Virus record (IMG/VR): IMGVR_UViG_3300027974_000142
Location: 1 to 26,507 of that record
Strand: one strand, 5' to 3'
Source of the DNA: a virus
Length of the DNA: 26,507 nt
Shown: positions 1 to 10,743 of the stretch, in pieces
Position numbering within the stretch: the stretch's first letter is position 1
How the letters are laid out: each line of letters opens with the position of its first letter
Notes under the pieces: generated by a model
What the model saw: the letters and a program-made list of their open reading frames with translations, nothing else
Told to the model about the DNA's origin: nothing
Databases searched by the model: none
Position numbers and translations under genes: made by a program

Positions 1-674
1 AGAATCTTGTCCGTGAGTTTCTCTTCGATGTCGGACTGTCGCAGAATGTAGAAGCTCTCGGCCCTGCAAAGCACTTTTGGGACTTTCTCGCCGACGAGAA
101 TGGTGAGCTTGGCGCTTCAGCTTACAATCGCCAGTGGCGGCGGTGGCCGGCATCCCGTCCAGGGTCTGAAGTGCCAAATGAGAGTTTAGTGACCGTGGGT
201 GCTGTAGATCAGCTTGACCGTGTGATGCATCTTCTCCGTGACACCCCAAATTCGCGTCACGGCACTGTCATCACCACAAATCCCACCGCGATGAATGTGG
301 CGTGCCCGCCCTGTCATCTCGCAATGCAGTTTATGCCTAGCAGTGGGTATCTCGATCTGATGGTCCCGGCCCGCTCGAATGATATGGTTGTGGGCTTCCC
401 ACTTGATATTGCCCGATATTCGATCATTCTAACGGTGATGTCACAGATGACTGGTTTCAAACCACGTTTCGTGTACATGCCTTCGGCGAACTCCCACATC
501 TACAAGAATTGCTACGGTCTCGTGGACGAGTTGCTTGCTCGGGCCCCTCGGCCTGAGTGTCAGCTTCTTATCGGAGCCGAGGCGCCCTTTTCGAGCTGGG
601 ACGATGTTCAGCTCGACGACTTTGATCTTTTGAATTATGACCATCATCCCGCCATCAAGGTGGAGGTCAACTGA
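1..674 (+). CDS. Thymidylate synthase-fold enzyme, probably dCMP hydroxymethylase type (5' partial)
   Basis: The frame is open from base 3 and runs off the left edge, so the N-terminus is missing; the ATG at 171 is internal. The start of the visible part (WADENG-like FLADENGELG, then QWRRWP) matches the thymidylate synthase core. The catalytic Cys-His pair (CPPCH) has its Cys codon at 312-314. The RSxD motif and the late SHIY motif (His and Tyr that bind the nucleotide sugar) are present. The Asn that recognises the uracil base in thymidylate synthase (Asn177 in E. coli) is Asp here, codon 405-407, in GFPLDIA. In the family, Asp at this site marks enzymes acting on cytosine nucleotides, such as T4 gp42 dCMP hydroxymethylase. 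The fold is certain; the substrate is inferred from this one residue. It would act in the cytosol, making 5-hydroxymethyl-dCMP (or dTMP) for phage DNA. Promoter cassette 1 follows its stop. Confidence 0.85.
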   Translation, partial: NLVREFLFDVGLSQNVEALGPAKHFWDFLADENGELGASAYNRQWRRWPASRPGSEVPNESLVTVGAVDQLDRVMHLLRDTPNSRHGTVITTNPTAMNVACPPCHLAMQFMPSSGYLDLMVPARSNDMVVGFPLDIARYSIILTVMSQMTGFKPRFVYMPSANSHIYKNCYGLVDELLARAPRPECQLLIGAEAPFSSWDDVQLDDFDLLNYDHHPAIKVEVN

Positions 675-706
675 TGGCCGAAAAGCGAATGTGCCAGTTG
701 AGGAAG

Positions 707-757
707 TGGCACAAGGTATGATCCAAAGGCCTTTAAATGTGGTATTATAAAGATATG
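707..757 (+). promoter_or_regulatory. Early promoter cassette, copy 1
   Basis: TGGCAC at 707-712, 30 bp, extended -10 TGGTATTAT with hexamer TATTAT at 743-748, then AAAGAT and ATGGAAAAC starting at 755. The geometry (36 bp from box start to -10 start, 6 bp from -10 to ATG) is identical in six copies in the window. With a normal discriminator the first transcribed base would be the A of the ATG at 755. That ATG opens a 12-codon leader whose TGA (791-793) overlaps the start codon of the next gene at 790. No TTGACA-like -35 is present at normal spacing. Confidence 0.75.
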
Positions 758-789
758 GAAAACCACAAACCACACATCATACAACAATC

Positions 790-1023
790 ATGACTGCAAC
801 CCCTAATGAGGAAATGATGGCTAAAATGGCCGAACTCGCTGCTGATACGGTCCGCGAGCGCATTATGGAAGAATTTGGAGACCTTATTCATGACGCTGTG
901 GGTAATGCCGTAATTGAAGTCCTCGGTGAGGACTTTGTTAATAACTTGGTTGAAGAAAGCGAAGAAGCTTATTTCGATCTTATGATGGATCTTACAACTC
1001 GCATTGTTATCACGACTGTCTAA
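790..1023 (+). CDS. Small acidic hypothetical protein (77 aa)
   Basis: Unrecognised. The predicted protein is helical and strongly acidic, with only four Lys/Arg residues. It has no signal peptide or membrane segment. No Shine-Dalgarno sequence precedes the ATG. Instead, the stop of a 12-codon leader ORF that begins at the predicted transcription start (755) overlaps this start as ATGA, so initiation may depend on termination-reinitiation. Its own TAA overlaps the ATG of the kinase gene as TAATG, so the two are probably translationally coupled and expressed together from promoter copy 1. An early host-takeover protein would fit the context, but that is only a guess from position and composition. 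Confidence 0.7.
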   Translation: MTATPNEEMMAKMAELAADTVRERIMEEFGDLIHDAVGNAVIEVLGEDFVNNLVEESEEAYFDLMMDLTTRIVITTV

Positions 1024-1469
1024 TGAAAGCTTACGTAATGGTCGGAGCACCTGCATCCGGTAAATCCACTTTTGCTTCTAAACTTGCTAAAACTGAAAAT
1101 GCTTTTGTCGTCTCAGGGGACGAAATAAGAGCCGAGCTTTATGGAGAGGAAGCCAACCAAGGCGATTGGGTCCAAATCCATGATCGAATAGAGGAATTGG
1201 TTTCTGAAGCGTGTGGGATGCCCGTCATTTTAGACGGAACCCACTACCTTGCATCTTATCGTCGTGAAGCCCTCGCGCTTCTTCGCTCTTACGGCTACGA
1301 CGAGGTTGAAGCTGTGGTGCTAAACACCCCACTTGAAGAGTGTTTACTAAGGAATGCCGTTCGCCATCGCGGAGTGCCACGCCACGTCCTTCTTGGCATG
1401 CATCAAAAACTTCAAGCCTCTCTTGAATTCATCAACGTTGAGGGCTTCAATAATGTCGTCGTCGTGTGA
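1023..1469 (+). CDS. P-loop nucleoside/polynucleotide kinase-like protein (AAA_33 type)
   Basis: A 148-residue single-domain P-loop kinase. Walker A is GAPASGKST near residues 8-16 (Lys14, Ser15), directly after the first beta strand. A second strand ending in VILDGTHY (about residue 75) carries the acidic residue typical of this kinase group, and the C-terminal part has Arg-rich lid-like segments (RNAVRHRGVP) followed by VLLGMHQKLQ. This arrangement is that of the AAA_33 / polynucleotide kinase-like family, which transfers the gamma phosphate of ATP to a 5'-hydroxyl or to a small substrate. It has no fused phosphatase, unlike T4 Pnk. The substrate cannot be told from sequence. It overlaps the preceding gene by one base and ends 12 bases before the box of promoter copy 2. 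Roles in RNA or DNA end repair or nucleotide metabolism are possible. Confidence 0.75.
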   Translation: MKAYVMVGAPASGKSTFASKLAKTENAFVVSGDEIRAELYGEEANQGDWVQIHDRIEELVSEACGMPVILDGTHYLASYRREALALLRSYGYDEVEAVVLNTPLEECLLRNAVRHRGVPRHVLLGMHQKLQASLEFINVEGFNNVVVV

Positions 1470-1481
1470 CAGTTCACAAAC

Positions 1482-1532
1482 TGGCACAAGGCATAGGCAG
1501 AAGCCTTGAAAATGTGGTATTATTAAGACATG
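1482..1532 (+). promoter_or_regulatory. Early promoter cassette, copy 2
   Basis: TGGCAC at 1482-1487, -10 TATTAT at 1518-1523 with upstream TGG (extended -10), 6-bp spacer, ATGGAAAAC from 1530. Between box and -10 lies a 22-bp imperfect palindrome (1487-1508) with arms CAAGGC and GCCTTG, a possible operator. The ATG at the predicted +1 is the start of the 50-residue ORF that follows. Confidence 0.75.
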
Positions 1533-1682
1533 GAAAACAGCCAAACAGCCATGGCAAAACTCACTCCCGCTCAAGCCTACGCCCTTCAAATCAAGGCAGA
1601 TCGCCGTGCTGCCGCTGTAGAGCGCCGTCAGCCTGAAATTGCAGCTGATAACGCCCGCTTGAAGGTGATGTATGCAGTGTGA
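1530..1682 (+). CDS. Very small hypothetical protein (50 aa)
   Basis: An open frame of 50 codons between promoter copies 2 and 3. The first ATG (1530) sits exactly at the predicted transcription start, so the message would be leaderless; an in-frame ATG at 1551 is the alternative. The start MENSQTAM resembles the starts of the genes at 3990 and 4456 (MENNQTTM, MENQTP), which follow the same cassette. The body is Ala-rich, helical and charged (AYALQIKADRRAAA), and may form one amphipathic helix. It is unrecognised. That it has its own promoter and is the only ORF in this slot argues that it is real; its shortness keeps confidence moderate. Confidence 0.55.
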   Translation: MENSQTAMAKLTPAQAYALQIKADRRAAAVERRQPEIAADNARLKVMYAV

Positions 1683-1694
1683 CACTTCACAAAC

Positions 1695-1745
1695 TGGCAC
1701 AAGGCTTGATCCAAAGCCTTGAAAATGGTGTATTATATAAGTATG
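1695..1745 (+). promoter_or_regulatory. Early promoter cassette, copy 3
   Basis: TGGCAC at 1695-1700, -10 TATTAT at 1731-1736, 6-bp spacer, ATGGAGAAA from 1743. It carries a perfect 22-bp palindrome at 1700-1721 (arms CAAGGCTT and AAGCCTTG, 6-bp centre), the best-preserved version of the element also seen in copy 2. The ATG at the predicted +1 opens an 11-residue leader ending at 1778, just before the gene at 1785. Confidence 0.75.
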
Positions 1746-1784
1746 GAGAAACACCTCCTACAAACCAACTCTCTCTAAACCAAA

Positions 1785-2288
1785 ATGAACAAATTTCTTG
1801 CTACCGCCACAAAATCCATCCGCAATCCCGTTAACGGCCGCTTCACTCAAGTGATCAAGGGCAACATTTACTCAAAGGCTCAAATTAAGCCTTGGCTAAA
1901 AAATGGCATTGCTCCTGATTTCTTAGTTGACGGAAATCTTTCACATTTTGAAAGGTTTATCCGTGGACGAGTTAGTTTCCTTGCTTCACAAGGTCTTGAA
2001 AGCGACACTTATTATGCTGTCTGCAAGGCCATCGTCCACTTCTTTGGTGGCGACACTAAAGCACTTCGCAAATTCGGCCTTGGCGGTGGCACCGTCCAAA
2101 TGGCCATGAAGCTTGAGCGCGATCTCAGCGAGCAGCTTGGCATTGCTTACGTGCCATGCGTTCACGAGGCTGACGACCCTCTTGCCTTCAGCCAACGCTC
2201 CTATGCTGGCTTCTACCCTTGCACCAAGCAACAAGAGGAGGCCATTATTGCTCTCACTATCAAGCACATCACTGAGCGCTATTCCTGA
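1785..2288 (+). CDS. Hypothetical protein (167 aa)
   Basis: Unrecognised. It is a soluble, mixed alpha/beta-looking protein with a basic N-terminus (MNKFLATATKSIRNP) and a glycine-rich stretch GLGGGTVQMAMKLE near residues 98-111. It has no membrane segment or signal peptide. No Shine-Dalgarno sequence precedes the ATG (AACCAAAATG). An 11-residue leader ORF starts at the predicted +1 of promoter copy 3 and ends seven bases upstream, so the arrangement copies that of the gene at 790. A strong rho-independent terminator begins 16 bases after its stop, so this gene closes a transcription unit that starts at promoter copy 3. Confidence 0.7.
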   Translation: MNKFLATATKSIRNPVNGRFTQVIKGNIYSKAQIKPWLKNGIAPDFLVDGNLSHFERFIRGRVSFLASQGLESDTYYAVCKAIVHFFGGDTKALRKFGLGGGTVQMAMKLERDLSEQLGIAYVPCVHEADDPLAFSQRSYAGFYPCTKQQEEAIIALTIKHITERYS

Positions 2289-2304
2289 TAGCGTACCCGC
2301 TGAT

Positions 2305-2326
2305 GGGGGCTTCGGCCCCCTTTCTT
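2305..2326 (+). terminator. Rho-independent terminator with UUCG loop
   Basis: Perfect 6-bp GC stem GGGGGC / GCCCCC (2305-2310 with 2315-2320) closed by the very stable tetraloop TTCG and followed by TTTCTT. It lies 16 bases after the stop of the gene at 1785 and 18 bases before the ATG at 2344. It is the clearest intrinsic terminator in the window. Confidence 0.85.
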
Positions 2327-2343
2327 CATCACAACTCATCGCT

Positions 2344-2826
2344 ATGACTAGCCTTCCCTACCATCTAATTCGCATTACGCCCGGCTTCGACCTTTCCTCT
2401 CTGCTGGCGGATCCCGACTGGGCTCCCCATAGTATAGACGGTTATCGCCGCCACCAAAAAGTTCTCGTCTCATTCATAGAGTACTGCCTTGAAAAAGGCT
2501 GGACAGTCGATCTTCCGGTCTTCGGTGAAGATGCGGGGTGGGACTACGGCGTGGACATCTTCGTCAACGGAAAAGCGATCGACCTCAAGTCATTTCCTCT
2601 TCGTGAAGACGCTAAAACCAAAACCTTTGACAGCCCCGCTTATAACGGCAAAGGCACTCATCCGAAGTCGTTAACCGCTTGGTTAATTTTCGCACCTCCG
2701 GGAACTTCGGCTGAGGCCTGGGAAGCTGCCCCCTTCAAGCGGCAGCAGAAGTCGAAGTATGGTTTTGCTCCCTACTTCTGGAAGAAAGACGTTGTTTCTT
2801 TCTCAGAATTTGCTTCCACTCTCTGA
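2344..2826 (+). CDS. Putative PD-(D/E)XK superfamily nuclease
   Basis: A 160-residue protein whose central part reads as a PD-(D/E)XK nuclease core: GWDYGVDIFVNGKAIDLKSF at about residues 65-84, giving a first acid (Asp67 or Asp71), a beta hairpin, then Asp80-Leu-Lys82 as the D-x-K motif. Glu46 in the preceding helix could be the extra acid. Such cores bind one or two metal ions and cut DNA; phage members include homing endonucleases, resolvases and recombination nucleases. The frame is open further upstream, but an earlier start would overlap the preceding gene and cross its terminator, so ATG 2344 is chosen. No Shine-Dalgarno and no obvious promoter lie between terminator and start, so it may be expressed by read-through. 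Fold moderately likely; exact role unknown. Confidence 0.5.
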   Translation: MTSLPYHLIRITPGFDLSSLLADPDWAPHSIDGYRRHQKVLVSFIEYCLEKGWTVDLPVFGEDAGWDYGVDIFVNGKAIDLKSFPLREDAKTKTFDSPAYNGKGTHPKSLTAWLIFAPPGTSAEAWEAAPFKRQQKSKYGFAPYFWKKDVVSFSEFASTL

Positions 2827-2850
2827 GGTGTGTTTTCATACACCTCGACA

Positions 2851-2882
2851 AATGGTTTTCACACTTTTTATGAGTTTGACCT
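2851..2882 (+). repeat. Intergenic repeat copy A (GGTTTTCACAC-N5-ATGAGTTTGAC)
   Basis: This element recurs at 6836-6864 with A/G differences at two positions and one missing T. Both copies follow the last gene of a transcription unit and precede a promoter region. It contains no gene. An inverted repeat (GAGGTGT / ACACCTC, 2825-2846) lies just upstream. Confidence 0.45.
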
Positions 2883-2907
2883 CTGTCCTATGCGACAGTT
2901 AAGGAAG

Positions 2908-2958
2908 TGGCACGAGGGTGGTCTTCAAAGCGTCGGGGCGTGGTAAAATAAAGTTATG
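2908..2958 (+). promoter_or_regulatory. Early promoter cassette, copy 4
   Basis: TGGCAC at 2908-2913, TGG plus -10 TAAAAT at 2944-2949, 6-bp spacer, ATGAATAAAAAC from 2956. The spacing is the same as in the other copies although the 30 bp between the boxes are quite different, which argues that the spacing is functional. The ATG at the predicted +1 opens a 7-residue leader ending at 2979, ahead of the methyltransferase. Confidence 0.7.
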
Positions 2959-2991
2959 AATAAAAACACAATCAAATAGGAGCAAATAGAA

Positions 2992-3927
2992 ATGAGCAAA
3001 CATTCAAACAAAATTGACGAATTTTATGCCACCTCCAAAGAAACTGCGCTTTGGCTTATTGAAGAGATTCGCAATAGGTATGACACAAAGGGTCGCACTG
3101 CTCTTGAGCCGTGCGTCGGTGGCTTTGTGTTTCCTAACGCTGCTCCTGAGCTAAAATGGACTACAAATGACCTTAATAAGTGGACAAGCCGGTCTCCAGA
3201 CACACTGCAGGACTTTTTGAACTCGGACTTCCCCCATTTTGACTTTGTTATCACAAATCCGCCTTTCGGCGCTGCAAACAAACTTGCTTTTGACTTTCTA
3301 AAGAAGTCTTCTCAGTTGGCGAGTGTTGTGGCAATGGTTGTTCCGTCTTCAATGGGCAATTTCAGTCCCCGCTTACACAACTCGCTTCCTAAAGACTTCA
3401 AGTTGGTGTTTTCTGAGCGGTGCCCATCTCAAAAGTTCGATCTTCCAGATGGCACCACTCGTAATGTTCGAACTCACGGAATTATTTGGGAGCGGGTTGA
3501 GGATTATGCCCGTAAACCCCCTTTTAAACCTGTTATTGATGATCGCACTCCTTTCTTTACGTTTTGTAATGATGGTGACTTTGCGTTGCGGGTTTATGGT
3601 GATGGCCTTGGCGATATGAAACCTTGGAGCCCCTCATGCACAGGAACTTGGGCTCGGTTTAAGTGCATGTCAGGGAAGCAAATCGTATCATTGAAGCTCA
3701 TTATGAGTTTTCCGTGGAGGCACGCTGTGGGCAGTTGTGGCAATGGGCGTGCACCTTGGGATGATACACCAGGTGTGGTGCCAGTTATATCGCCTAAAAA
3801 AGTTCTTCATTGGACAAATTGTGTAGCCGTGCTTGAAGGGCGCATTCCGCCATTAGAGGGTGTTGACTATGACGCATTTTATGAAGAAACCAAAGCAAAG
3901 CTGTTAGTGGGGTTGGAGCCTCCTTAG
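2992..3927 (+). CDS. N6-adenine DNA methyltransferase
   Basis: A 311-residue S-adenosylmethionine-dependent methyltransferase. The N-terminal FYATSKETALWLIEEI resembles motif X of adenine methyltransferases; LEPCVGG (residues 38-44) is the AdoMet-binding motif I; TNPPFG with Asn89-Pro-Pro-Phe92 is catalytic motif IV of N6-adenine enzymes. The C-terminal third would hold the target-recognition part and is not recognisable. Expected reaction: transfer of a methyl group to adenine in duplex DNA. No partner restriction endonuclease is next to it, so it is likely a solitary phage enzyme guarding phage DNA or altering regulation. The start is supported by GGAG 9 bases upstream of the ATG, one of the few good Shine-Dalgarno sites in the early region. 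Expressed from promoter copy 4. Confidence 0.85.
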   Translation: MSKHSNKIDEFYATSKETALWLIEEIRNRYDTKGRTALEPCVGGFVFPNAAPELKWTTNDLNKWTSRSPDTLQDFLNSDFPHFDFVITNPPFGAANKLAFDFLKKSSQLASVVAMVVPSSMGNFSPRLHNSLPKDFKLVFSERCPSQKFDLPDGTTRNVRTHGIIWERVEDYARKPPFKPVIDDRTPFFTFCNDGDFALRVYGDGLGDMKPWSPSCTGTWARFKCMSGKQIVSLKLIMSFPWRHAVGSCGNGRAPWDDTPGVVPVISPKKVLHWTNCVAVLEGRIPPLEGVDYDAFYEETKAKLLVGLEPP

Positions 3928-3941
3928 ACCACTTCACGAAC

Positions 3942-3992
3942 TGGCACATAGTTTGGTCCAGAGCACTCCAAATGTGGTATTATAAAGATATG
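3942..3992 (+). promoter_or_regulatory. Early promoter cassette, copy 5
   Basis: TGGCAC at 3942-3947, TGG plus -10 TATTAT at 3978-3983, 6-bp spacer AAAGAT, ATGGAAAAC from 3990. It is nearly identical to copy 1 from the -10 onward. Here the ATG at the predicted +1 is in frame with, and probably starts, the following gene. Confidence 0.75.
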
Positions 3993-4421
3993 GAAAACAA
4001 CCAAACCACCATGGAAACCATCCCCAAAACAAACCCAGTCGGCGAGTGGATCGAAGAGTGCCGCAATGTTAACAGCAGCTGGGCCTGCATGATCCCCTCC
4101 AACATCCTCCTCTATCGTCTTGAGCTCGATTCGATTTTCTCAACCGATGAAGGTTGGTATTCGGAATGGTACGAAGAGTTCAACGACGATCATGGCACTA
4201 ACTACACTGTCGAAGAGTTTGAAGAGCTAGTTCTCGAGTACATCATGCCTGAAGTTGCTGATTGGACCACGGAAAAGTTGGCTGAAATTAGCGTTGATGG
4301 TTGGCTTCAAACAATGGATCTGTACAACACAGAATGGGAGTACATTCGCGAAGCACTGAGCGCTGAAGGTGTTTCTGATGAGCGTCTCGAAGCACTCGAT
4401 GAAGAACTAGCACAAAACTAG
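3990..4421 (+). CDS. Highly acidic hypothetical protein (143 aa)
   Basis: Unrecognised. It contains more than 30 Asp/Glu and only 6 Lys/Arg, is rich in Trp and Tyr and looks mostly helical, with no signal or membrane segment. ATG 3990 coincides with the predicted transcription start (leaderless); ATG 4011 is an in-frame alternative, and an ATG further upstream at 3972 lies inside the promoter and is rejected. No Shine-Dalgarno site is present. The composition is that of DNA-mimic or anti-restriction proteins such as T7 Ocr, and it is next to a DNA methyltransferase, but no family motif supports that reading, so function is open. Its 3' end carries the upstream box of promoter copy 6. Confidence 0.7.
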   Translation: MENNQTTMETIPKTNPVGEWIEECRNVNSSWACMIPSNILLYRLELDSIFSTDEGWYSEWYEEFNDDHGTNYTVEEFEELVLEYIMPEVADWTTEKLAEISVDGWLQTMDLYNTEWEYIREALSAEGVSDERLEALDEELAQN

Positions 4422-4458
4422 TTTCCAAACCACTCCGCTTAGTTAAAATAGAACTATG
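4408..4458 (+). promoter_or_regulatory. Early promoter cassette, copy 6 (embedded in gene end)
   Basis: TAGCACAA at 4408 is the box with one mismatch, -10 TAAAAT at 4444-4449, 6-bp spacer AGAACT, ATGGAAAAC from 4456. The 36-bp box-to-hexamer distance is kept even though the box lies inside the last codons and stop of the upstream gene. Confidence 0.6.
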
Positions 4459-4785
4459 GAAAACCAAACACCTGACACACCCGAAGTTCCTAGCACCGTT
4501 CAGGACCTTCTCAATATTCAAAAAGGCCACAACGAGTGCGACCACGGCGAAAACCCGAATGAGTTTGCAGAGGCCGTTGATTGCCTCATGGACGACCTTC
4601 TTCCTGACCCAATGCAAACGCTGAGAGCAGCGAGAATGCTGGTCAAACGCCTTGCCATTTACCATTTTGACATGGTAGAAGATGACGAGATGGAGATGTG
4701 CAAATTTCAAAAGCGTCTCTGGAAAAAAGACTTCAGGTATCTCGAAAAAGCTCTTGAGCTTCTTACTCTTGTTCGTGAAGACTGA
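4456..4785 (+). CDS. Acidic hypothetical protein (109 aa)
   Basis: Unrecognised. The protein is helical and acidic in its first two thirds (many Asp/Glu, Met), with a basic patch FQKRLWKKDFRYLEKA near residues 83-98. It starts with MENQTP, like the other genes directly behind this promoter family, at the predicted +1 of copy 6. No Shine-Dalgarno site. Its TGA overlaps the ATG of the topoisomerase gene as TGATG, so the two are likely co-translated, and it may be an accessory factor of the topoisomerase or simply its operon partner. Confidence 0.65.
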   Translation: MENQTPDTPEVPSTVQDLLNIQKGHNECDHGENPNEFAEAVDCLMDDLLPDPMQTLRAARMLVKRLAIYHFDMVEDDEMEMCKFQKRLWKKDFRYLEKALELLTLVRED

Positions 4786-6779
4786 TGAACAAAAACACTA
4801 ACATTGTCCCAGTCAATGTCGCCGACCAGATGAAGGAGGACTATGGCAGTTACGCCATGGCCGTTCTTCTTGGCAGGGCGATCCCCGATCTCTATGATGG
4901 CCTTAAGCCAGTGCAGAGGCGAGTGCTTCAAACCATGTTTGAGGAAAACCTTAAGCCTGACGGAAGATTTGTCAAGTGTGCTCGGGTTACGGGCCTTACC
5001 ATGGCCTATTTTCACCCACATTCTGGTGCTTATGGCGCATTGGTCAACATGGCAACACCATGGAATAATAACGTGCCATGGATTAGTGGATGGGGCAATT
5101 TCGGTTCTACTGTGGACGGCCCCGCTGCGGAACGCTATACGGAGTGCAAACTGCGTGAGTCCGCAATCGATGTCCTTTTGCAGGACCGCACTACCTGGGA
5201 GACCCGCCCCAACTACGACGGCTCAAAGCAGGAGGCTATACGCTTCAACACCACACTGCCCTCCGTCCTTCTCAATGGCGACTCAGGAATTGCCGTGGGA
5301 TTTGCAACTACTTTGGCCTCTCACTCTCTTCGCGATATTGTCAAAGCAGTTGAATTCGTCTACAAAAAGGATTTGAAACGGGCGCGAGAAATTCTCCTTC
5401 CTGACTTCCCTACTGGTTGCGACGTTATCCAAGATGAAAACCTTACTGCTTATACTGAAACTGGCTCAGGCAGTATCCGTTGTCGTGCCCGTTACGAGTT
5501 GGGTATCCAAAAGAGGGACGGGCGGGCGAAAGATCGCTGCACTGTCACGTTCACTCACTTTCCTCCTCGGGTCAATCCTGAGAAACTAGGCGAGCAGATC
5601 AAGGATGCACTCGAGAGGGGCAGAATTGAGGGAGTTGCCGAAATCAACGATCTTTCTGATCTCAGTGGAGATCGCATTGAGGTTGTTGGAAAGCCGGGTG
5701 TTGAAGGTGAGCAGCTTGCTCAGCGACTCTTTGCTGCCACTGACCTTGACACCAAGTATTCGGCAAAGACGCTGGTTATTGACGGGACAAGACCCGTCGA
5801 GCTTAGCCCGACTGACATTTGTCAGAAATGGTTCACATGGCGGCTGGCTCGCCTGGAAGCAAAGTTTGTCAGAGAGCGGGACGTAGCCGAAACTCGTCAT
5901 GAGATCGTCATCGGCCTGATCAAAGCCATCAACAAGATTGACGAGGTTATCAAGACGATTCGTGGAGCTGCAAACCGCAAGGAAGCCCATGAGAAACTGG
6001 TCGATCGCCCTTTGAAGTTCACTCCTGAGCAGGCCAAAGCAATCCTTGAGATGCGCTTACACCAACTCACCGGCCTGGACGCCGGCGAGCTCGAGGCAGA
6101 ACGCGAAACTCTGGAAGCCCAACTCGCGGAACTGGAGAATCTTCTCAAAAGCGAGGATGCCCGGGCTAAGTGGGCGCTGAAGCAGATGGCGGAGTTTGCC
6201 AAACGTCATGGCCAGATACGCAGGTCGTCCCTGGTAGCACCTCCGACTCGTGAGGTGAAGATCCCTACATCTGACAGGTCCGGAGCTCCCCGGGTGTCAC
6301 CTGCGGCTAAGCCCCGCTTCATGATCGTGGACGTTAAGAAAGGAGTTGTCACTCAGGCTAAGGGCCCTCGCGGGGCTATGGTTCTGGATCAGAAGGACAA
6401 AGTGATCTTTATCATGCAGTCAGGCTTTTTCTGCAAGGTGCATGCCGCCTTTAAAGGGCCGGTCGCTGAGAACTACATACCCGTAGTCCTGGCGAAGCGA
6501 GAACGCGAGATAGTGGAACGCAAGTTCCTCGTTGTCTTTACTCTCGACGATTCACTCAAAGCTACTGTTCTCGACGGTGCTGATCTGGCCCGTGTCACTA
6601 GCAAGGGGAAGTCGTTTCTGCCCGAGGGAGCAGAGCTCGTCCACTTTGGCGAAGGCTCCTATAAGGTGGAGTTCGCCAGTGCCCGGAAGAAACCTGTAGT
6701 TCTCGACCTCTTGACTAAGACCGGAAAGCCGGGCGGGAAGGGCATCAAGATAGCGGCCCTCACTGACCTGGCTAATTAA
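4785..6779 (+). CDS. Type IIA DNA topoisomerase subunit A (GyrA/ParC-like)
   Basis: A 664-residue DNA-cleaving subunit. The N-terminal winged-helix/tower core is clear: SYAMAVLLGRAIPDLYDGLKPVQRR at residues 22-46, the active-site Tyr118 in AAERYTECKLR, and GIAVGFATTLASH near 167-179, followed by the long coiled-coil arm. It makes transient double-strand breaks through a tyrosyl-DNA bond and needs a GyrB/ParE-like ATPase partner, which is not in the window. It is longer than T4 gp52 (about 440) but shorter than GyrA or ParC. Its C-terminal part is a reduced beta-pinwheel-like region ending in GKPGGKGI, reminiscent of a GyrA box. Gyrase versus topoisomerase IV activity cannot be decided. The codon mix looks more GC-rich than that of its neighbours. 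Coupled to the preceding gene by TGATG. Confidence 0.92.
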   Translation: MNKNTNIVPVNVADQMKEDYGSYAMAVLLGRAIPDLYDGLKPVQRRVLQTMFEENLKPDGRFVKCARVTGLTMAYFHPHSGAYGALVNMATPWNNNVPWISGWGNFGSTVDGPAAERYTECKLRESAIDVLLQDRTTWETRPNYDGSKQEAIRFNTTLPSVLLNGDSGIAVGFATTLASHSLRDIVKAVEFVYKKDLKRAREILLPDFPTGCDVIQDENLTAYTETGSGSIRCRARYELGIQKRDGRAKDRCTVTFTHFPPRVNPEKLGEQIKDALERGRIEGVAEINDLSDLSGDRIEVVGKPGVEGEQLAQRLFAATDLDTKYSAKTLVIDGTRPVELSPTDICQKWFTWRLARLEAKFVRERDVAETRHEIVIGLIKAINKIDEVIKTIRGAANRKEAHEKLVDRPLKFTPEQAKAILEMRLHQLTGLDAGELEAERETLEAQLAELENLLKSEDARAKWALKQMAEFAKRHGQIRRSSLVAPPTREVKIPTSDRSGAPRVSPAAKPRFMIVDVKKGVVTQAKGPRGAMVLDQKDKVIFIMQSGFFCKVHAAFKGPVAENYIPVVLAKREREIVERKFLVVFTLDDSLKATVLDGADLARVTSKGKSFLPEGAELVHFGEGSYKVEFASARKKPVVLDLLTKTGKPGGKGIKIAALTDLAN

Positions 6780-8636: not shown

Positions 8637-8669
8637 TCATTAACTCTGCGCGCTCGGTACCGTGATTCC

Positions 8670-8674
8670 AAGGA
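8670..8674 (+). promoter_or_regulatory. Ribosome binding site deciding the start at 8683
   Basis: AAGGA lies 8 bases before ATG 8683. A GTG at 8662 is in frame upstream but would place this site inside the coding region and has no site of its own. Confidence 0.7.
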
Positions 8675-8682
8675 CCGTAACA

Positions 8683-10743
8683 ATGGCAAACGAGGTTGCT
8701 AATACCTTTTCAGCACCTCAACTTGCCGAATATGGCAACATCATTCTCAATGGTTACTCTGAAACTGTCGCTAACACAGATAATGTGAAAGCATGGCAGT
8801 ACCGTGAGACGAATACTCCTCCAGTCGACTTGCCTTCTGTTCAGCAAGTAACTCCTGCTCTTAAGGGTTGGTCCACCAACTATATGGAGTATTACACACA
8901 GCTCATGCCTAACGCCTATGGCGTTAACCCTGGCGATCCGACGATGTTCCACTACAGCGTCAATTCGTTTGTGGCTGGACAACCTAAGTGGAATCAGGTA
9001 CCCCATCGCTTCTTCCAAAACCAAGTTGCGCCGTTTGTGCCGCCTAATAACAACTCTCAGGCTATTCCTTACAGTTATGTATATTCAATTGTTAATAATC
9101 TCACTTCGCCCCCGATTGGTGCCCTAACTGGCGCAACTCCGCCGCCGCCACCAGCAATTCCAACTTATACTCTATCAACAACTCCGACAGCAGCAACTGA
9201 AAATACCGTAATCTCTACAACTGTATCAACAACTAATGTCACTGACGGGACTTTAGTTTATTGGAGGATGAACGGCAGCGGAATCACCTCCTCATTCTTT
9301 ACTTCTAATGTTTTGCAAGGTTCGGCAACTGTTACTTCAAACACAGCCAGCTTCGCTCAAACTCTAGCCGCATCTTTGCCCGCTGGCGGTCCTTATACAC
9401 TTGGCGTAACACTTTATTCCAACCCCGGCTACACTCAGCAAGTCGGGACTACAAGTGTGGTTATCTCAATTACACCAGGGGTTACACCCTCTACCCCGGA
9501 GCTTGGGGTGTATATTGACCTTTACCAATACCGCAATACTGGCGGCGTTTACCCCGATGGTTCCTACGTCGGACTCAACCCCAATATGCGGGCAGCCAAC
9601 ATCAACACCCTCTTACCTTCACTCGACAAGTTCTATATCCTCATCGAAGCTCAAATTTACTCCGACGGTAAGTTATACTTCGGTACGAATGTTGGCAACT
9701 CTGCCGCTTTAGTGTTAAATGCTGGCGGTACTGATTGGGCAGATAATACTGGGTCAGTGTCTGGTGGTTATGTTAGCCCAACTAATCCAGACTATGCCTA
9801 TTCTGCCTACGCAATTAAGAATTCAATTTACTACTTATCTCAACAAACTGCCTGGACAACCAAGAACCTCATCCTGTCAGTTGGCGGATACAACTTATCT
9901 CAGTACATGGACCAAGCTGGCAGCAATGCCGGCCTGGCCCAAACTGCTGCCAACCAGATTGCGAAACTTGTGCAGATCACTGGAGCTGTTGGCGTCGATC
10001 TTGACTACGAACCAGTTGGTCAACCTTGTGTTCCTGCCAACATGGCTCTTCTCTGCCAAAAAATCCAGACAGCTGTTAAGGCTTTGGACCCCACTTACGA
10101 AGTCCACCTCACTATCATTCCGCCCCTGTCTCTGGCCGATCCCGATCTAAAGATAAGCACAGCACTTGCATGTCAAGGTTACGTTGATCAAATCAATATC
10201 ATGACCTACGATGACCCGAACAATCTTGACCAGTCCCCATATCAACCCGGAAATGCCACAGTCTACAACCACACCGGCGTGGGTCGCTCAGTTCAAAGCG
10301 TTCAGTGGTTCCTTGACCAGGGTGTAACTCGTGATAAACTTGGTATGGGCATTGCAGGATATGGACGCAATAGTGCTAGTGGTCAAGCATTTACTAATAA
10401 TGGAACCCCTTATGATCAAATCGTTCGCATTGCCGGTTCTGGTGGTGCGGCTGATCCACAATTCATGCTTGGTCGCCTCAATGCTGCTGTTCCTATAGTC
10501 AATCCCAACCCTACAACTCAAGGCAACTTCTACTATAGCCCAACAACAGCAGTTTGGGGCTTCGACTCTGTGGATACAATCGCTGATAAAGTTCAAGCAT
10601 CGTCCAACCTGGGTATCCGAGCTGTGTTCATGTGGCAGCTGTCGAATGACTACTCCAACCCCTCTTCTGCTCTGCCTGCTGGCAACCCGCTAGCCAACTT
10701 TGCTCTCGTTAAGGGTGCCCAAGCTGCCATTGCAGCTCTCTAG
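8683..10743 (+). CDS. Virion-type protein with Ig-like and glycoside hydrolase family 18 domains
   Basis: A 686-residue protein. Residues about 1-145 are an unrecognised N-terminal part, followed by a Pro-rich linker (TPPPPPAIP). An Ig-like beta domain (about 158-263) is of the Ser/Thr-rich kind frequent in cyanophage structural proteins. From about 275 to the end is a family 18 TIM barrel: LSVGGY strand, catalytic strand VGVDLDYEP with Asp439, Asp441 and the acid Glu443, INIMTYDD, and the late strand FMWQLSNDYS. Family 18 enzymes cleave beta-1,4 GlcNAc linkages in chitin or peptidoglycan using the neighbouring Asp and Glu, both present; the first Asp of DxxDxDxE is Val436. There is no signal peptide. 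With its Ig-like domain and candidate late promoter it is probably part of the tail or baseplate and may degrade host wall or surface glycans. Confidence 0.8.
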   Translation: MANEVANTFSAPQLAEYGNIILNGYSETVANTDNVKAWQYRETNTPPVDLPSVQQVTPALKGWSTNYMEYYTQLMPNAYGVNPGDPTMFHYSVNSFVAGQPKWNQVPHRFFQNQVAPFVPPNNNSQAIPYSYVYSIVNNLTSPPIGALTGATPPPPPAIPTYTLSTTPTAATENTVISTTVSTTNVTDGTLVYWRMNGSGITSSFFTSNVLQGSATVTSNTASFAQTLAASLPAGGPYTLGVTLYSNPGYTQQVGTTSVVISITPGVTPSTPELGVYIDLYQYRNTGGVYPDGSYVGLNPNMRAANINTLLPSLDKFYILIEAQIYSDGKLYFGTNVGNSAALVLNAGGTDWADNTGSVSGGYVSPTNPDYAYSAYAIKNSIYYLSQQTAWTTKNLILSVGGYNLSQYMDQAGSNAGLAQTAANQIAKLVQITGAVGVDLDYEPVGQPCVPANMALLCQKIQTAVKALDPTYEVHLTIIPPLSLADPDLKISTALACQGYVDQINIMTYDDPNNLDQSPYQPGNATVYNHTGVGRSVQSVQWFLDQGVTRDKLGMGIAGYGRNSASGQAFTNNGTPYDQIVRIAGSGGAADPQFMLGRLNAAVPIVNPNPTTQGNFYYSPTTAVWGFDSVDTIADKVQASSNLGIRAVFMWQLSNDYSNPSSALPAGNPLANFALVKGAQAAIAAL

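Follow-up and report, generated by a model that had tools for sequence, protein, structure and literature searches.

Between the thymidylate synthase and DNA topoisomerase II genes of the window (26,507 nt, the entire IMG/VR virus record IMGVR_UViG_3300027974_000142), a short box recurs six times at an invariant distance from a -10-like hexamer and an ATG, which raises the question of what this repeat is and what might read it. The window phage is a cyanophage whose gene order follows that of Synechococcus phage S-CBWM1.

Repeat geometry and a 24-bp dyad

All six coordinates of the original prediction were recovered. TGGCAC lies at 707, 1482, 1695, 2908 and 3942 and TAGCAC at 4408, and downstream of each box lie 30 bp without exception, then a -10-like hexamer (TATTAT in four copies, TAAAAT in two), 6 bp and ATG, which reads ATGGA in five of the six copies and ATGAA in copy 4. 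In the comparison with randomised sequence that had been set beforehand as the test, TGGCAC-N30-(TATTAT/TAAAAT)-N6-ATG occurred five times exactly and six times with one mismatch allowed, all at 0.7-4.5 kb, whereas 200 first-order simulations gave on average 0.0 and 0.015; similarly, TGGCAC-N30-TATTAT gave four matches, compared with 0.00 in 100 dinucleotide shuffles. Within the window, the full pattern was absent at all spacings between 20 and 40 apart from N30, and likewise on the reverse strand and outside positions 1-5000. A generic promoter scan of the window returned as many matches as the shuffles did, and Rfam and tRNA scans returned none.

The TGGCAC box is indeed recurrent, but it is not the complete unit that it had been taken for: in copies 1-5 it forms only the right, promoter-proximal arm of a 24-bp near-palindrome, TGTGNCASTT-N4-AASTGNCACA. 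If the A of 'ATG' is +1, this dyad spans -65 to -42 with its centre at -53.5, directly upstream of -35, and the box itself is centred at -45.5, in agreement with the expected position near -45. Copies 1-5 match 15-18 of the 18 defined consensus positions and copy 6 fails the threshold, while all six copies have the -10 at N30 after the box and A at +1. Copy 6 is a degenerate member of the class with an unrecognisable left arm. The absence of a usual -35 was borne out by the poor -35 boxes of the window copies, and the extended -10 holds for copies 1, 2, 4 and 5 of the six, which carry TGn.

The six predicted promoters and their genes

All features of the region lie on the + strand. The conserved left flank is the 3' part of thymidylate synthase (171..674; PHROG 160, E=3.9e-41), which is 89% identical in the related contig L005. 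Copy 1 follows with the dyad TGTGCCAGTT-GAGG-AAGTGGCACA (690..713), matching 18/18 cyanophage consensus positions, and a -10 TATTAT (743-748) preceded by TGG; its putative +1 is A755 of ATGGAAAAC (743..755), as indicated by the geometry and the purine +1 consensus of 670 sites. Behind it lie a small ORF (790..1023), matched in L005 by a 37% homologue that sits at the opposite end of the region behind a dyad promoter of its own, and a polynucleotide-kinase-like P-loop protein (1023..1469; PHROG 505, Pfam AAA_33).

The remaining start sites are likewise predicted from the geometry. Copy 2 (TGTGACAGTT-CACA-AACTGGCACA, 1465..1488, 18/18) has its -10 TATTAT at 1518-1523 and a putative +1 at A1530 (1518..1530), and its small ORF (1530..1682), the L005 orthologue of which also lies behind its own dyad, has its start codon either at +1 or at the in-frame ATG that follows. 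For copy 3 (TGTGACACTT-CACA-AACTGGCACA, 1678..1701, 18/18), with a -10 TATTAT at 1731-1736 and a putative +1 at A1743 (1731..1743), the orthologous promoter at L005:5101 is also of the N30 type. Its leader contains an 11-codon reading frame, MEKHLLQTNSL* (1743..1778), of equal length in L005 (METSLLSTNSL*), and is followed by the copy 3 protein (1785..2288) and a further protein (2344..2826), both without assigned function and respectively 80% and 81% identical in L005.

Copy 4 (TGCGACAGTT-AAGG-AAGTGGCACG, 2891..2914, 16/18) combines a -10 TAAAAT at 2944-2949 with a putative +1 at A2956 (2944..2956), and the gene behind it, preceded by AGGAG, begins at 2992. A 58% homologue of its DNA-methyltransferase-like product (2992..3927; PHROGs 5172 and 799) is encoded on L082, another phage contig with the dyad. 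Copy 5 (TAGACCACTT-CACG-AACTGGCACA, 3925..3948, 15/18), with a weaker left arm, a -10 TATTAT at 3978-3983 and a putative +1 at A3990 (3978..3990), precedes an acidic protein (3990..4421) that matches no family. Copy 6 (4405..4456) retains a degenerate half-site, AACTAGCACA (4405-4414), a -10 TAAAAT (4444-4449) and a putative +1 at A4456, and it overlaps the end of ORF 3990-4421, consistent with its predicted location inside a gene end. The copy 6 protein (4456..4785) also matches no family, and its start codon possibly coincides with +1, i.e., the transcript would be leaderless. The conserved right flank is DNA topoisomerase II (4785..6779; PHROG 551; 51% to S-CBWM1). No DNA-binding family was detected among the cassette genes in Pfam, PHROGs or NCBIfam.

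Dyad promoters across cyanophages and their predicted mode of action

The dyad was found in at least 120 contigs of IMG/VR and in some 150 phage records, almost all from Synechococcus or Prochlorococcus phages, including the T4-like Syn9, S-PM2 and ACG-2014f, and a class of dyad-type promoters was defined from 670 distinct sites. Dyad counts greatly exceeded the Markov expectation in the cyanomyoviruses tested (for example, 34 v 0.2 in ACG-2014f and 20 v 0 in S-CRM01). Over the 670 sites, -10-like hexamers are concentrated at N30 (349) and N31 (321), most other offsets having 15-60, and a purine occupies the seventh place after the -10 in 588 (88%). This purine at +1 argues that 'ATG' is mainly a start-site consensus, RTR, and the ATG of the cassettes is best read as this putative transcription start. 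Logos of the class display a -35 TTG at N8 and a -10 TATAAT. The description of the 30-bp spacer as unconserved does not extend across the cyanophages, where many sites have a TTG(AC)-type -35 at N8 and often a hairpin.

The class is carried by the small-gene regions of many cyanophages. ACG-2014f has some thirty dyads at N30, and in Syn9 such dyads lie at 47204, 48558, 51000, 52996 and 148742, and four of the five fall in a small-gene cluster. The nearest known counterparts are the early promoters of Kyanoviridae, the T4-like cyanophages: in their member Syn9, the same dyad precedes small-gene-cluster genes at N30, whereas the window phage, with its Mu-type portal and S-CBWM1-like synteny, is not T4-like. 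These comparisons establish, at the level of sequence, the dyad, its geometry and its conservation across unrelated cyanophages. The Syn9 transcriptome of Doron et al. 2016 reportedly revealed a novel regulatory element controlling early genes, and we presume that the dyad class is probably the one behind that element. For Ma-LMM01, P-HM2 and S-PM2d, the accessible portions of the reports describe sigma-70-type early promoters or timing instead of such a dyad.

A palindrome of this kind could also serve as an RNA hairpin or a terminator for upstream transcripts, and a stem is possible in copy 1 (-12.2 kcal/mol). However, folding is weak in copies 3-6, the dyad is not followed by a T-run, and at positions 7/16 the arms are complementary in 181 sites v 307 expected, with G/G and C/C favoured. 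As the half-sites avoid complementarity at one position, protein binding is argued for rather than an RNA hairpin, and the hairpin or terminator reading, disfavoured by this test, is very improbable.

The explanation that we favour, and consider likely, is that the cassettes are early promoters of the sigma-70 kind that depend on an activator and move as shuffling units. All six early-type promoters, each comprising a -10, a weak -35 and, at a constant -65 to -42, the dyad, would be read by the RNA polymerase of the cyanobacterial host together with the principal sigma factor. The dyad would be bound by a dimeric DNA-binding protein that is there from the start of infection and that recruits or stabilises the polymerase (class I/II-type activation), the constant 30-31 bp to the -10 holding both on one helix face, and transcription would begin at the A or G of RTR, 7 bp after the -10 (ATG in the window phage). 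We infer from sequence patterns the protein binding, the activation rather than repression and the start site, and from gene context and relatives the early timing. Of the activator or phage-specific RNA polymerase factor originally proposed, the former suits the position at -53.5, immediately upstream of -35; nothing points to the latter, given the ordinary sigma-70 character of the -10 and, elsewhere, of the -35. Against the favoured explanation stand the lack of a recognisable left arm in copy 6 and of a dyad promoter in S-CBWM1, the nearest isolate, as well as a search of the available, fragmentary contigs that found no DNA-binding protein common to the window relatives and the T4-like cyanophages.

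The fixed position alone is also compatible with a repressor. The dyad might be the operator of a phage-encoded repressor, for late shut-off of early genes or for superinfection, with the promoters first firing unaided, as several cyanophage copies with a good TTGAC -35 and TATAAT -10 could do; moreover, a set of similar operators in one genome is reminiscent of a repressor regulon. However, the window promoters have poor -35 boxes, and repressor operators as a rule cover -35, -10 or +1 and are tolerant of displacement, whereas the dyad lies upstream of -35 in one helical phase at 670 sites. We thus regard repression as unlikely.

Several known systems invite comparison. TGGCAC is the -24 element of sigma-54 promoters (TGGCAC-N5-TTGCW). 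This reading was rejected: the place of the -12 element holds no TTGC (the bases are ATGAT, ATAGG, TTGAT, TGGTC, TTGGT and TAGTT), the sigma-70 -10 is clear, and no cyanobacterium is known to have sigma-54. A CRP class II site (TGTGA-N6-TCACA at -41.5) was also rejected, as both half-site and centre differ. The P2/P4 Ogr-Delta late promoters have a TGT-N12-ACA dyad near -55 and a poor -35, and their activator contacts RNA polymerase alpha; the dyad centre and the poor -35 are similar here, but the spacing is TGT-N18-ACA, the genes are early-type rather than late, and no Ogr/Delta-like protein was found. In T4 middle promoters, a MotA box at -30 stands in for a weak -35 alongside a sigma-70 -10. 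A phage box is likewise joined to a sigma-70 -10 here, but with the box at -45.5 and the dyad at -53.5 instead of -30. The motA and asiA genes are reported missing from T4-like cyanophages (PMC5780444).

Cassette shuffling and host sites

In the related contigs L005, L006 and L007 the flanking genes are kept and the cassettes differ; the relatives are not alike in gene content, and the repeat lies at the borders of the modules. This comparison shows that a predicted promoter with its small gene or genes is a cassette gained, lost and reshuffled between thymidylate synthase and topoisomerase II. In T4-like phages, PeSL cassettes (Arbiol 2010, Comeau 2014) reportedly combine a compact early promoter with a stem-loop at the boundaries of shuffling genes, whereas here the dyad is constant and of protein type and the stem-loop is optional. 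No dense PeSLs were observed in S-PM2 (PMC4503421). The repeat could itself be such a recombination cassette, selected for homologous shuffling and not for protein binding, and in addition to its place at the boundaries of varying modules, spacers of the class fold strongly in 38% of sites v 10% of shuffled ones, 39 sites having a hairpin plus T-run; in the window, copy 3 alone folds well (-9.0), without a T-run. However, the spacer is fixed in length and free in sequence, where homology would favour the reverse, and the same half-sites occur in phages too distant for frequent recombination, so that we give this alternative little credence.

A sub-form of the activator explanation, in which the protein is a host picocyanobacterial transcription factor adopted by unrelated phages, is possible but doubtful. 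The site is common to unrelated phage lineages, and no regulator gene common to the window relatives and the cyanomyoviruses was found among these fragmentary contigs, which share only a tail sheath, a lysis-like protein and a 112-aa protein; the last was rejected as regulator, as it is also present in S-CBWM1, which is without the dyad. A visible regulon would be expected of a host factor, yet host genomes are nearly empty, with 12 dyad sites in 300 Cyanobiaceae genomes and 21 matches, near chance, in a GTDB-wide scan. A few host sites do have a similar layout. Near-identical sites lie in unrelated host loci in the vicinity of restriction-modification genes of types IIG, I and ISP, and also precede orthologous two-gene operons of two genomes, L310 and L440. 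A recurrent host site, TGACAGGTGAATTAGTGGCACA, downstream of dnaG was discarded as a regulon, being a single orthologous locus. It is conceivable, if rather unlikely, that some picocyanobacteria place the dyad promoter, an early cyanophage activator target, before defence or toxin-like operons, with infection itself as the trigger of defence.

The dyad, as read from these sequences, is probably the docking site of one early-gene activator. The analysis provides a precise, searchable signature for a large cyanophage promoter class, with hundreds of copies, spanning T4-like phages and at least one unrelated lineage in marine and freshwater cyanophages. This signature can be used for predicting early genes in uncultured cyanophages, for assigning contigs to picocyanobacterial hosts, for fishing out the binding protein and for asking whether hosts exploit the signal for defence. 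In the most abundant photosynthetic cells, the takeover by the phage may begin with the putative dyad-binding protein.

The dyad and its fixed spacing

Re-reading of the window confirmed the position of every TGGCAC-like box in the original prediction (707, 1482, 1695, 2908, 3942 and 4408), and the invariant spacing claimed for them was upheld. The full pattern of box, -10-like hexamer and ATG, with five exact copies and a sixth carrying TAGCAC, is confined to 30 intervening bases (N30), to the plus strand and to the first 5 kb, compared with 0.0 (exact) and 0.015 (with the looseness of the sixth copy) in simulated sequence. TGGCAC-N30-TATTAT occurred four times, against 0.00 in shuffles.

On reading upstream, TGGCAC was found to form the right arm of a longer element, an imperfect dyad of 24 bp (TGTGNCASTT-N4-AASTGNCACA) located on the plus strand at 690-713, 1465-1488, 1678-1701, 2891-2914 and 3925-3948 (copies 1 to 5); copy 6 has the right arm only. 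Taking the A of the ATG as +1, the dyad covers positions -65 to -42, with its centre at -53.5. A class set of 670 distinct directional sites was assembled from viral contigs and known genomes. At position 7/16, the sole two-fold degenerate symmetric position, complementary bases were present in 181 of the 670 sites versus 307 expected by independence, G/G and C/C prevailing; counted by locus, the majority was heterotypic in 104 and homotypic in 28. Selection for a hairpin would give the reverse, and thus the dyad is a putative protein site rather than a hairpin. Heterotypic half-sites (one AACTG and one AAGTG) are favoured over perfect palindromes across the 670 sites, and are seen in window copies 1, 3, 4 and 5.

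Promoter geometry and the predicted start site

Across the class, -10-like hexamers peak at N30 (349) and N31 (321), with a lesser bump at N36 (104) and mostly 15-60 at other offsets. The logo displays a -35 TTG at N8 in many sites, a TATAAT -10 and a purine-T dinucleotide 7 bp past it; the +1 base is A in 379/670 and G in 209/670, and the start trinucleotides are most often ATA, GTA and ATG. Most listed sites continue with an A-rich leader of about 20 nt and then a start codon. Similarly, in window copies 1-5 a second ATG follows ATGGAAAAC... 21-42 nt further down, the frame of the first ATG ends within 7-12 codons in copies 1, 3 and 4, and gene 2992 has AGGAG ahead of its own ATG. Based on these features, we conclude that the constant ATG is the predicted transcription start site, and that copy 6 alone would need to be leaderless. 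The copy 3 leader (1743-1778) contains an 11-codon frame, its length kept in the orthologue on the related contig L005 (~5149-5184); at its predicted 5' end lies an inverted repeat, GGAG...CTCC.

Gene content and cassette shuffling

Genes in the 26.5-kb IMG/VR virus record run in this order: the 3' part of thymidylate synthase, a 4.1-kb small-gene region, DNA topoisomerase II, a family A DNA polymerase of PolG type, tail genes and a portal of Mu type. Directly ahead of the polymerase gene, a large protein (8662-10743) bears a glycosyl hydrolase family 18 domain. Since Synechococcus phage S-CBWM1 is the nearest isolate by topoisomerase (51% identity) and shares the order topoisomerase, small ORFs, polymerase and tail genes, the window phage is a cyanophage, its inferred host being Synechococcus or a relative.

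With [P] denoting a promoter of the class and numbers denoting ORF starts, the window reads [P]-790-1023-[P]-1530-[P]-1785-2344-[P]-2992-[P]-3990-[P]-4456-topoisomerase, and L005 reads [P]-1530'-[P]-1785'-2344'-[P]-790'-small ORF-topoisomerase (primes mark homologues), with thymidylate synthase as the left neighbour in both. Gene 790 comes first in the window and its homologue last in L005, each behind a class promoter. For gene 2992, another dyad-bearing contig, L082, carries a 58% homologue. Strong hairpins occur in 38% of class spacers versus 10% in shuffles; the spacers that combine a hairpin with a T-run (39 sites) resemble terminator-promoter composites.

Distribution and identity of the promoter class

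In three relatives of the window (L005, L006 and L008; topoisomerase 86-68% identical), the dyad lies at N29-N30 before the -10. One dyad form was found in at least 120 stretches of viral contigs, and a 36-base consensus probe matched 150 of 50,697 phage records (130 Synechococcus, 8 'Cyanophage', 8 Prochlorococcus, 2 marine viruses and 2 others). Match counts in whole-record scans (at most 2 mismatches, both strands; one palindrome may count twice) were 62 for ACG-2014f, 42 for S-CRM01, 21 for S-PM2, 13 for P-HM2, 11 for P-SSM4, 8 for Syn9 and 23 for AG-345-F15 (35 kb), with 0-3 for the reversed control; T4, P-SSP7, Syn5, P-SS2, Ma-LMM01 and S-CBWM1 had 0-1. Therefore, the dyad is common in T4-like picocyanobacterial phages and patchy beyond them.

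In S-CBWM1 (MG450654), which is without the dyad promoter, a 24-bp repeat of its own, TGGGACAGTTTCGAATCTTTCACA, occurs about 10 times with hairpin-like sequence after it (e.g., at 10462, 26546, 84560, 84648, 84737, 96364, 96453 and 135658). In viral contigs L132 and L137, dyads are clustered, partly head to tail at ~57-58 bp, each followed by TTGACA or TTGACT, perhaps forming a promoter array or an origin. Several copies also occur on contigs C52 and C54 (L239, L286) of the Flavobacteriales MAG TMED113 (G003), which are probably misbinned cyanophage contigs.

Among hosts, the symmetric form (at most 1 mismatch) gave 12 sites in 9/300 Cyanobiaceae genomes versus 1 control site, and the near-identical TGNCARTTNNANTAGTGGCACA gave 18 matches in 9/400 genomes versus 1 control, some being a single orthologous locus near dnaG. 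The placement of these few sites is not random. Several near-identical sites are close to type IIG, type I and type ISP restriction-modification genes, and one form precedes two-gene operons that are orthologous between two genomes (proteins 52% and 30% identical) and include a 170-aa protein without known family; these loci are L305, L308, L310, L311, L314 and L440 (Cyanobiaceae genomes G012/G137, G153, G095, G034 and G192). Part of the host sites have TTGAC at N8, as in phage promoters; not every one is a promoter, as some sit between convergent genes, and the host sites as a whole are a lead only. Downstream of dnaG (L399-L401, L406, L407 and L409), a conserved stretch that may be a small RNA begins TGACAGGTGAATTAGTGGCACA and continues for ~100 conserved bases.

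The original prediction had proposed a promoter class served by an activator or a phage-specific polymerase factor, an interpretation that the analysis supports in part. A dyad-binding activator is favoured by the site geometry and by how poor the -35 is in the window, and the class itself is most likely of sigma-70 type. No DNA-binding family was found among the cassette genes, nor was any regulator common to the window relatives and cyanomyoviruses within the sequence compared; the putative protein may be phage-made, virion-borne or host-made. The abstract of the Syn9 transcriptome study reportedly mentions a 'novel regulatory element', and the class in the window is probably the one behind it. 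Taken together, the system is most likely a class of sigma-70 early promoters that cyanophages use with the help of an activator on which they depend, met here in a non-T4-like cyanophage.
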